From an uncultured Paracoccaceae bacterium (lineage in GTDB: Bacteria; Pseudomonadota; Alphaproteobacteria; Rhodobacterales; Rhodobacteraceae): a stretch of DNA of 64,000 bases. The first letter of the stretch is position 1, and every line of letters starts with the position of its first letter. Positions 29,054-31,466 of this stretch are shown in pieces. A model generated the notes under the pieces. The model was not told the DNA's origin, made no database searches, and saw only the letters and a program-made list of their open reading frames with translations. The stretch is from contig CANLVP010000002.1 of the NCBI GenBank assembly GCA_947494675.1, forward strand, positions 62,001 to 126,000, in the 5' to 3' direction. A program made the translations under genes and the position numbers.

Positions 29054-29539
29054 ATGGACTACAACCGCGCCGCCAAATATTTCCTGCTGATGGACTTCTG
29101 GCAGGGGTTCCGACTGGGGTTCAAACACTTCTTTCGGCCCAAGGTCACGCTGAACTATCCGCATGAAAAAGGCCCGCTAAGCCCCCGTTTTCGTGGGGAA
29201 CATGCGTTGCGCCGCTATCCCAATGGCGAAGAGCGTTGCATCGCGTGCAAACTGTGTGAGGCCGTGTGCCCCGCGCAAGCGATCACCATCGATGCAGAGC
29301 CGCGCGATGACGGCAGCCGTCGCACCACGCGCTATGATATCGACATGACCAAGTGCATCTACTGCGGCTTCTGCCAAGAGGCCTGCCCGGTGGATGCGAT
29401 TGTCGAAGGCCCGAATTTCGAGTTCTCAACCGAGACCCGCGAAGAGCTGTATTACGACAAGGACAAACTGCTGGCCAACGGCGACCGCTGGGAAGCCGAG
29501 ATTGCACGCAACCTTGAGATGGATGCGCCTTACAGATGA
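29054..29539 (+). CDS. nuoI: NADH-quinone oxidoreductase subunit I
   Basis: 23-kDa-type ferredoxin subunit, 161 residues, with two 4Fe-4S clusters (N6a and N6b): ligands in [12 protein letters not shown] and [12 protein letters not shown]. It carries electrons towards NuoB. The N-terminus ([22 protein letters not shown]) is the usual amphipathic helix that lies on the membrane. Its stop overlaps the following CMD-fold gene by 4 bases. Confidence 0.97.
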
Positions 29540-29925
29540 ACCAGCCCACCCCAGCATATGAGCAAGGTCAGGCATTGTCGGAACAGGTGAACCCCGGCAT
29601 GGAGGCGGCATTAGCGGCCCGCTATGACGCGCTTGTGCCCGGCCTGTCCCGCATGGTGGTCGAGGTGCCTTATGGCACGTTCTATGCACGCGGTGTGGTG
29701 GACGAAAAGACCCGGTTGCTGGCGACGGTTGCGGCGCTGACGGCGCAGGGCGGGCAGACAAAGCCACAGCTGAAGGTGAATATCGCGAGCGCCCGCAATG
29801 TGGGCGCAAGCCGCGAAGAGATTTGCGAAATCATCTATCAGATGACGCTTTACGGTGGCTTTCCGGCAATGATCAACGGGTTGAACGCCGCGATTGAGGT
29901 CTTTGAGGCGGAGGACGCGGCATGA
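29536..29925 (+). CDS. Carboxymuconolactone decarboxylase (CMD) fold protein, first of pair
   Basis: 129-residue all-helical protein of the AhpD/CMD superfamily: [18 protein letters not shown], then [27 protein letters not shown] (residues 86-112, in two pieces) and [11 protein letters not shown]. The CxxC pair that makes AhpD a peroxidase is absent; only one Cys (EICEII) is present. The His of gamma-CMD is replaced by Asn-Ile. So neither known chemistry is supported. It overlaps nuoI and the second CMD gene by ATGA. Confidence 0.85.
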
Positions 29926-30320
29926 CCGACCAGAACCCCTTTGAAGCCATGATGAAGATGAGCCAGGACTGGCTCAAGCAGGTGAACCCGGCGATGGAAT
30001 CCTTCACGCCCAAAGGGTTTGAGAACATGTTCCCCACCATGCCCAAGGACGTCATGGAGACGTTTATGGGCAAGGGCATGAACCCTGAAGGGTTGGACGC
30101 CAAGACCCGATTGCTGCTCACCCTGATGGGGCTGACAATCATGGGCGCGCAGGCCGAGGCGCAGGTGCGTCTAACCGTGCGCCATGCGGTCGAGGCAGGG
30201 GCCACGAAACAAGAAATTGCCGAAACCATCGCGCAGGCCGCGATGTTTGGCGGGGTGCCTGCCATGACCAAAGCCATGGAATTGGCCACAGACGTCCTAG
30301 ACCAGGAGAGCGACGCATGA
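29922..30320 (+). CDS. Carboxymuconolactone decarboxylase (CMD) fold protein, second of pair
   Basis: 132-residue paralogue of the preceding protein: [53 protein letters not shown]. It has no cysteine at all, so it cannot be an AhpD-type thiol peroxidase. A Met-rich N-terminal segment (residues 9-58) is distinctive. It overlaps its partner and nuoJ by 4 bases each. The tandem pair probably makes a hetero-oligomer, as CMD folds are usually trimeric or hexameric; this is inference. Confidence 0.82.
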
Positions 30321-30922
30321 CCGTGTTTGCCTTTACCTTTTATCTCTTCGCGATCTCGACCGTTTTGGGCGGGTTGATGACCGTGATCAGCCGCAACCCG
30401 GTGCATTCGGTGCTCTGGCTGATCCTTGCGTTCCTGTCCTCTGCCGGGTTGTTCGTGACCTTGGGGGCAGAGTTCGTGGCGATGCTGCTGATCATCGTCT
30501 ACGTGGGCGCGGTGGCGGTGTTGTTCCTGTTCGTGGTGATGATGCTGGACGTCGATTTTGCCGAGTTGAAAGCGGAGATGTCGAAGTATCTGCCGCTGGG
30601 CCTGCTGATCGGGGTTGTGATCCTGATGCAGATGGCAATCGCCTTTGGCACATGGGGCTTTGCCGACGGTGCGGCAGGCCGGATCGGTGCCCCTGCGGGC
30701 GAGGCCGAGAATACGGCGGCCCTGGGCCTGCTGATCTATGACAAATACATCATGCTGTTCCAGCTTGCCGGTCTGATCCTGCTGGTCGCGATGATCGGGG
30801 CGATTGTCCTGACCCTGCGCCACCGCGTGGACATCAAGCGCCAGAACGTGGTCGCCCAGATGCACCGCGACCCGGCCTTGGCGATGGAGCTGAAAGACGT
30901 GAAGCCGGGGCAGGGGTTGTGA
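30317..30922 (+). CDS. nuoJ: NADH-quinone oxidoreductase subunit J
   Basis: ND6-type membrane subunit, 201 residues with five transmembrane helices by eye. [20 protein letters not shown] and [20 protein letters not shown] (helix 3, with the pi-bulge that changes between states in ND6) are the signatures. The stop overlaps the start of a 34-codon ORF by one base (TGATG). Confidence 0.96.
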
Positions 30923-31026
30923 TGGCAAATTTTTACGAAAAATTTGACCCCAAATCCTCCCCGAGGATTTGTCGCCAAACTCTTTCAAAGAGTTTGCTTT
31001 CCAAGATGCAAGGACAAGCGCAATGA
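30922..31026 (+). CDS. 34-residue micro-ORF made of a triple-hairpin element
   Basis: ATG 30922 overlaps the nuoJ stop (TGATG), and its TGA (31024-31026) overlaps the nuoK ATG (ATGA). The 34 residues ([13 protein letters not shown] at the start, basic after residue 15) show no homology I know. Almost the whole ORF is three 21-bp hairpins, so the coding capacity may serve only to keep ribosomes moving from nuoJ to nuoK. Whether the peptide is stable is unknown. Confidence 0.4.
30926..30996. repeat. Three tandem 21-bp hairpins, period 25 bp
   Basis: Hairpin 1: CAAATTTTT (30926-30934), loop ACG, AAAAATTTG (30938-30946). Hairpin 2: CAAATCCTC (30951-30959), loop CCC, GAGGATTTG (30963-30971). Hairpin 3: CAAACTCTT (30976-30984), loop TCA, AAGAGTTTG (30988-30996). 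Each is a perfect 9-bp stem with a 3-base loop, starting CAAA and ending TTTG, with 4-base spacers. The inner stem sequences differ completely, which shows selection for structure. No T-run follows. Confidence 0.9.
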
Positions 31027-31328
31027 TCGGACTTGAACACTACCTCACGGTCGCGGCGGCGCTGTTTGTCATTGGCATCTTTGGCCTGTTCCTGAACCGC
31101 AAGAACGTGATCATCCTGCTGATGAGCATCGAATTGATGCTGCTGGCAGTGAATATCAACTTTGTGGCGTTCTCGGCCTATCTGAATGATCTGGTGGGGC
31201 AGGTGTTTACGCTGTTCGTGCTGACCGTCGCCGCCGCCGAGGCCGCGATTGGGCTGGCGATCCTTGTGTGTTTCTTCCGCAACCGCGGGACCATCGACGT
31301 TGAAGACGTCAACGTGATGAAAGGCTAA
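31023..31328 (+). CDS. nuoK: NADH-quinone oxidoreductase subunit K
   Basis: ND4L-type membrane subunit with three transmembrane helices, 101 residues. [16 protein letters not shown] contains the Glu of the proton path in helix 2, and [13 protein letters not shown] the second conserved Glu in helix 3. I start at ATG 31023, which overlaps the preceding 34-codon ORF by 3 bases (ATGA context); the family start is MIGLEHYL. Confidence 0.96.
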
Positions 31329-31331
31329 GCC

Positions 31332-31466
31332 ATGACCACTGCACTCGCCTACATCTGGTTGCTTCCCGTCGCTATCGGCACCTTGGGCGCCTATTATTTT
31401 GCGATGCAAGACTTGGGGCCGCAGCCCTGCAAGGTGCCGTCAAAGGCAAAGACTGAGGACGAATAG
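31332..31466 (+). CDS. 44-residue single-helix micro-protein between nuoK and nuoL
   Basis: ATG 31332 (3 bp after the nuoK stop) to TAG 31464-31466 (3 bp before nuoL). One transmembrane helix (about 6-24, YIWLLPVAIGTLGAYYF) and a hydrophilic tail with a Cys and acidic end (KTEDE). Snug spacing on both sides and in-frame membrane topology support translation. It could be a supernumerary complex I subunit or an assembly helper; I know of no family. Confidence 0.55.
   Translation: MTTALAYIWLLPVAIGTLGAYYFAMQDLGPQPCKVPSKAKTEDE

Follow-up and report, generated by a model that had tools for sequence, protein, structure and literature searches.

The short insert between nuoJ and nuoK of an uncultured Paracoccaceae bacterium is one copy of a dispersed family of hairpin arrays found in Rhodobacteraceae, mostly marine ones. 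In the window, the whole 64,000-nucleotide stretch that was analyzed, nuoJ occupies 30317–30922 on the forward strand (Pfam Oxidored_q3, E 1e-39), with its TGA stop codon at 30920–30922, and nuoK follows on the same strand at 31023–31328 (Oxidored_q2, E 8e-32). The array begins 3 nt past the nuoJ stop codon. Along the nuo transcript, it consists of H3 (30926–30946, CAAATTTTTacgAAAAATTTG; assigned to its place in the family by alignment), H2 (30951–30971, CAAATCCTCcccGAGGATTTG; stem CAAATCCTC, our search key) and H1 (30976–30996, CAAACTCTTtcaAAGAGTTTG; stem CAAACTCTT, for which the family consensus is CAGACTTTC), all on the forward strand. Each is a 21-nt hairpin with a perfect 9-bp stem and a 3-nt loop, and the starts are spaced by 25 bp, as an earlier note on this DNA had described. 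The motif AAGGA at 31010–31014 of the forward strand was read by eye as a possible Shine-Dalgarno site of nuoK. No other perfect CAAA-5-3-5-TTTG palindrome occurs in the window, and the three hairpins account for three of its five perfect 9-bp stems with 3–8-nt loops. The 75-nt array folds at −25.9 kcal/mol against −10.0 kcal/mol for shuffled sequences (z −6.6; 0 of 200 shuffles as low), while the wider 141-nt stretch folds ordinarily (z −1.3; 22 of 200 as low) and the window H3 alone forms a weak RNA fold of −2.7 kcal/mol. Elsewhere in this operon, two neighboring ORFs of the carboxymuconolactone decarboxylase family (29536–30320), an unusual insertion for a nuo operon, lie between a ferredoxin-type (nuoI-like) ORF and nuoJ, and a 44-residue ORF without a Pfam match (31332–31466) lies between nuoK and nuoL.

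The earlier note took the hairpins for a palindromic element tolerated within the nuo operon, and the junction does hold one. The alternative of a single chance occurrence fails, as related arrays are dispersed through both the genome and the family. In a genome-wide palindrome search, which the note had suggested, the H2 pattern CAAATCCTCNNNGAGGATTTG occurs seven times in 3.9 Mb, against none for the reversed-pattern control, and all seven copies have at least one further 8–9-bp hairpin about 25 bp away; the array is thus more than chance. A covariance model built on these seven copies, applied to the window genome (G000) with a cut-off of E 0.01, gave at least 11 places, a lower bound since 150 of 829 first-look candidates were scored. 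The exact H2 pattern is present in six of 295 sampled family genomes, with 2–9 copies each and none for the control. Among the matches listed from genome_contigs, at least 113 stretches carry it, of which 108 belong by record title to Rhodobacteraceae or alphaproteobacteria, including Litoreibacter, Loktanella, Yoonia, Ruegeria, Sulfitobacter, Pseudooctadecabacter, Anianabacter and other genera; L084, for instance, displays an array in Ruegeria pomeroyi SZCCDBG043. Five lone matches from other phyla (L086, L089, L116, L133 and L137) were removed before counting as chance hits, of which we estimate that about four are expected.

The usual hairpin order is H1 (CAGACTTTC), H2 (CAAATCCTC) and H3 (CAATTTCTC or CAATTCCTG), and the hairpins neighboring H2 fall at −25 in 35 cases and at +25 in 37 cases across 80 loci. 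From 108 loci and the window genome, 114 of 115 elements could be classed, comprising 56 H1H2H3, 53 H1H2, 3 H2H3 and 2 with H2 only; H1-like hairpins flank both sides at L073 and L134. Away from H2, no hairpin pairs 15–150 bp apart were found in 0.9 Mb, and none of the 27 other hairpins of at least 9 bp in the same sequence, many of them GC-rich and terminator-like, is arrayed. A blastn search with one array and the low-complexity filter on revealed no copies on plasmids or phages. Rfam gave no match in the window at the gathering score, three matches far under the cut-offs at the window array (E 5.9–8.4), and none at E 1 at the arrays of L117, L256, L337 and L345. The portion of the open-access literature searched yielded no earlier description of the family; one report describes the Rhodobacterales RNA motifs HRC-8-4, between cco operons, and uORFC-8-2, upstream of cysS (PMC8632094). 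A hairpin pair with CGAATATTC/GAATATTCG and an AAAT-type partner, at a seemingly orthologous site in the window genome (L054) and in G004 (L187), may represent a further set of stems.

Comparison of orthologous arrays indicates that the paired stems are what selection keeps. Grouping by flanking-protein matches on both sides gave 17 groups and 105 usable pairs, which share ancestry and are not independent; the H2 stems, being the search key, were left out of the divergence counts. Divergence is 3.8% in H1 stems (71 of 1890 bases) and 12.2% in H3 stems (57 of 468), far below that of the loops (56.5% for H1, 65% for H2 and 35% for H3), the linkers (63% for H1–H2 and 54% for H2–H3) and the flanks (53% beside H1 and 46.5% beside H3). 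H1 stems therefore change about 15 times less, and H3 stems about three times less, than their own loops at the same sites. The information content is likewise concentrated in the stems, at 0.86–1.97 bits per base except for the closing pair of H3 (0.1 bits), and reaches at most 0.48 bits in the loops, linkers and flanks, with some enrichment of G just outside H1. Pairing is maintained through change: double-changed Watson-Crick cells outnumber one-sided ones by 47 to 23 in H1 and by 39 to 26 in H3, where six further cells are unpaired, and the two arms of one palindrome agree in 958 of 981 H1 cells and 499 of 531 H3 cells. For the seven copies of the window genome, the covariation score is higher than in any of 500 shuffles; pairs in which both sides have changed are more numerous than in 498 of them, and further pair types than in 481. 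The drift of loops between arms that remain matched makes tract gene conversion an unlikely explanation. The count of G.U against A.C cells (20 to 7) was not used as support, because some of these cells come from hairpins that were misplaced, including those of the window array.

The arrays sit just after genes and favor convergent gene ends. The median distance from a stop codon to the array start is 12 bp, with 92 of 119 distances between −10 and 60 bp as determined with a crude ORF caller. The 114 elements comprise 41 in convergent, 37 in tandem and 13 in divergent contexts, 13 inside a called ORF and 10 at a locus edge, whereas background gaps of 60–400 bp in the same loci number 41 convergent, 119 tandem and 48 divergent; a second ORF caller assigned 45, 43, 12, 10 and 4 elements to the same context classes. 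The transcript order H3-H2-H1 of the window array recurs in 33 of 43 tandem cases, and in 22 of 31 (p 0.015) when orthologs are counted once, which is a modest bias.

The largest orthologous group comprises 14 loci in the trp region from at least five named genera, including C3:660522 of the window genome. In the six of these loci that were read, the gene order is trpF, a small ORF, the array and trpB; for L117, Pfam confirmed trpF and a PLP enzyme of the trpB type. This trpB-upstream array is an old copy, located directly 3′ of the gene for a small protein, mostly of 75–90 codons. The region upstream of trpB was surveyed by script in 115 genomes, namely five congeners together with 110 genomes from the 119 sampled ones that gave a match (nine were not fetched). 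ORF and array occur together in 11, the ORF alone in three, the array alone in one (G153) and neither in 100 (Fisher p 6e-12), these genomes being members of one family and not independent. In two of the ORF-only genomes, G083 and G093, inspection by eye shows adjoining palindromes overlooked by the greedy script; the remaining one, G070, has a degenerate ORF (E 0.003) with one hairpin and a broken H2. Among 72,556 plasmids, tblastn with the small protein retrieved one record, Tropicibacter oceani NZ_CP124617.1, in which the ORF is annotated as an aspartate aminotransferase and adjoins uvrB, not trp. Two hairpins 24 bp apart lie at its end and are the sole perfect stems of at least 9 bp (loops 2–5) in 8.2 kb. 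When the fetched loci are taken together, the ORF has a hairpin close to its stop codon, or no more than 180 nt away, in 29 of 31 cases; the exceptions are L155, which reads through its own array, and L173, an uncultured Sulfitobacter locus in which the ORF appears frameshifted while the array persists. As many of the 31 ORFs were found via arrays, the evidence free of this bias comes from the census and the plasmid. The linkage of the old copy to the small gene is strong, and the small protein is the probable partner of the array. The idea that loss of the small gene is followed by decay of the arrays holds only in part: G002 has no model matches and G004 one weak place, but G001, which lacks the gene at trpB, keeps about nine array places, some with intact hairpins.

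The small protein gave nothing above cut-off in Pfam, NCBIfam and PHROG (best E 0.066), and no relatives were found in phages and viral contigs. Among solved structures, the best sequence matches were norovirus capsids (E 0.012), which we judged to be chance. The AlphaFold2 model of its 72-residue core (pLDDT 91.7, pTM 0.79) has the order H-H-E-H-H-E-E, a winged-helix-like arrangement in our reading. Foldseek returned no match at E 0.001 or better; its weak matches included winged-helix domains, SepF-like proteins and parts of EPSP synthases, so a winged-helix-like fold is only a suggestion of the model.

Other stems accompany the same small ORF in other lineages, such as CAAGCGGTTTCGAAACCGCTTG and its relatives, CAAAGCCTT/CAGACCCTT in G003 and G005, and CCGCTTTCTT/CCGAAATCTT in Tropicibacter. 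The core GCGGTTTCGAAACCGC is present in 26 of 395 genomes with up to 30 copies, while the control gave single matches in two, and 22 neighboring palindromes at 21–25 bp were seen in 26 loci viewed, one per genome. Some single matches are solitary, and those at L325 and L329 resemble coding sequence. In G056 (L351–L353), copies of this core are paired, 112–137 bp apart, at five listed places. Many palindromes of this second vocabulary have TCGA at the center. According to one study, a few sites enriched in an R. sphaeroides RNase E mutant carry a UCGA motif (PMC6238624), and a link between the two is possible. On a tree of the small protein, the vocabulary labels require five changes, where shuffled labels need 13.5 on average and none of 200 shuffles is as low, although the tree is small and poorly supported (2 of 28 inner branches starred), G003 and G005 were scripted into the second vocabulary, and such clustering is also expected from relatedness alone. 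A bolder proposal, which we consider rather unlikely though worth stating, is a previously undescribed two-part system, in which a winged-helix-like small protein and its cognate hairpin arrays, dispersed past stop codons, would form a genome-wide post-transcriptional regulon. Protein and stems would change together, with lineages swapping codes (CAGACTTTC/CAAATCCTC; AAGCGGTTTCGAAACCGCTT and relatives; CAAAGCCTT/CAGACCCTT; CCGCTTTCTT/CCGAAATCTT) while the architecture stays constant.

We tentatively favor, at somewhat short of even confidence, the reading that the arrays are REP-like dispersed elements forming RNA hairpin stacks past stop codons and probably partnered by the small protein, a function that we infer from sequence. 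The place, the order and the conservation of paired stems fit this reading. Against it speak the 13 divergent contexts, the weak fold of the window H3, the modest size of the order bias, the arrays kept by G001, the array without the small gene in G153 and the weakness of the Foldseek matches. The array would act in RNA, as a hairpin stack starting a few nucleotides past a stop codon. At nuoJ–nuoK, it would delimit the nuoJ segment at its end and retard 3′-to-5′ decay, such that the segments on either side could differ in lifetime while transcription would continue. The suggestion of the earlier note, that the hairpins protect mRNA or set nuoK output, is plausible from the sequence. In the Rhodobacter puf operon, an intercistronic hairpin was reportedly studied for mRNA stability by Klug in 1987. 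The arrays resemble it in lying after a stop codon, within an operon, and in the same bacterial family, but they are a dispersed repeat family, whereas puf is a single locus. The position just past stop codons, with transcripts assumed from gene order, is that of an mRNA decay barrier, and REP RNA is said to impede 3′–5′ exonucleases (PMC5082802). However, the conservation of stem sequence beyond pairing exceeds what an exonuclease barrier needs and counts against a barrier alone. It calls for a reader, for which the small protein is the natural candidate. Stem recognition by this protein would explain both the kept stem sequence and the change of vocabulary with protein clade.

The arrays also come and go between close relatives, which lends some weight to a purely selfish REP- or MITE-like element, whose stems would be kept for a copying enzyme and for which gene ends would be harmless insertion spots. 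Four of six congeners, the window genome included, carry an array at nuoJ–nuoK. The window genome and G001 share the 100-bp form, with H2 broken in G001, and G003 and G005 have a 70-bp form with two palindromes. At the same junction, G004 has an empty site of 1 bp and G002 a different 433-bp stretch. At the liv and thiolase sites (genes named by Pfam), arrays are present in G000, G001, G003 and G005 and absent from G002 and G004; the L053 site shows the same pattern, except that it was not found in G001. The L043 array is present in G000, G003 and G005, and the L050 array in G000 alone of the six. At the L046 site, where G002 and G004 are the sole genomes aligned, both lack the array; so does G005, the only one aligned at L045. 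Where G004 is empty, at nuo, liv and thiolase, the flanking genes nearly touch or overlap. With regard to the MITE features of terminal inverted repeats and target-site duplication, the empty sites were aligned and are too diverged to display a duplication. Across the six congeners, the places matching the model range from 0 to about 22 per genome, as counted from the listing; this range, the presence and absence within one genus at the nuo, liv, thiolase, L053 and L050 sites, and the patchy spread of exact H2 all suit a selfish element. In the family at large (L010–L039), the nuoJ–nuoK junction, as read in 28 of 30 loci, varies from 1 to several hundred bp, at times with other open frames.

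REPs are defined as repeated, extragenic palindromes of 20–40 bp, with a GTAG or CGTC tag at one end (PMC3733652), and usually exceed 100 copies (PMC2817692). The arrays match in size and extragenic palindromic nature, and share with the REP/RAYT systems the occurrence of several short palindromes per locus, dispersed and near gene ends (PMC3733652, PMC2817692), the lineage-specific stems and one copy adjoining a small gene. They differ in lacking the tag, as their flanks hold at most 0.38 bits and the palindromes end CA...TG; in numbering at least 11 places in the window genome instead of the usual 100 or more; in combining different palindromes in a recurring order at a 25-bp phase; and in having an unrelated small protein. 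The Y1_Tnp (PF01797) RAYT gene was found in 0 of 17 genomes and in 5 of 14 controls. Of known systems, REP elements are the nearest in kind, although the tag, transposase and copy-number features failed as tested. The lack of a Y1_Tnp gene in the 17 genomes, the shared position of the trpB copy across 14 loci of five or more named genera, and a contrast between stem and loop divergence that is unlike post-insertion decay make the purely selfish account doubtful.

The conserved stems could instead serve as double-stranded DNA operators, with a winged-helix-like protein on each 21-bp dyad and the rows acting as a roadblock or a chromosome-organizing complex at gene ends. The 9+3+9-bp dyads, their 25-bp phasing, the conserved stem sequence with free spacers, and the topology of the predicted model are compatible with this. 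However, the arms match within each palindrome though H1, H2 and H3 differ, and a dimer accepting all three should tolerate mixed arms. Together with the order bias along transcripts and the weakness of the Foldseek matches, this renders an operator role improbable. Intrinsic termination for one or both convergent genes would account for the excess at convergent gene ends, but the stems are A/T-rich, no T-run follows H1, the 27 other hairpins in the same 0.9 Mb, many of them GC-rich and terminator-like, form no such arrays, and in nuo, liv and trp an array separates tandem genes; we regard this explanation as very unlikely.

The earlier note had emphasized a 34-codon frame that couples nuoJ to nuoK across the array (30922–31026, forward strand). 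The frame does run from TGATG (30920–30924) to ATGA (31023–31026) as described, but its importance is unsupported. Two of the four array-bearing congeners lack it, as the 70-bp junction of G003 and G005 has no ATG, and G004 has no insert. Between the window and G001, the 13 differences in the frame affect 2 of 54 stem bases and 11 of 51 other bases, and 7 of 11 changed codons are non-synonymous. We therefore judge the frame, from these comparisons, to be an incidental by-product of the palindromes, itself not conserved. The in-frame insertion bias that the note had envisaged does not arise, because most arrays lie outside genes, with 13 of 114 in a called ORF. Rickettsia palindromic elements are palindromic repeats readable as protein, as is the window array, but the arrays are mostly outside genes and lack coding constraint. 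That the array is a coding element of this style, inserted in frame for an important peptide, can be set aside almost entirely, even with the open frame through the window array and the small ORFs of L155 and L073 that continue through theirs as C-terminal extensions (NPRRGF and NPLRGF), given the absence of coding constraint against G001, of the frame in G003 and G005, and of most arrays from called ORFs.

An odd insert in one operon has thus become a family with a candidate partner protein. Should the stems be read by this protein, a genome would have a second route, free of a transposase, by which to retain short palindromic repeats and evolve along with them. The arrays would also offer a means of studying, at the sequence level, how Rhodobacteraceae keep the fates of adjacent genes apart in operons such as nuo, liv and trp.
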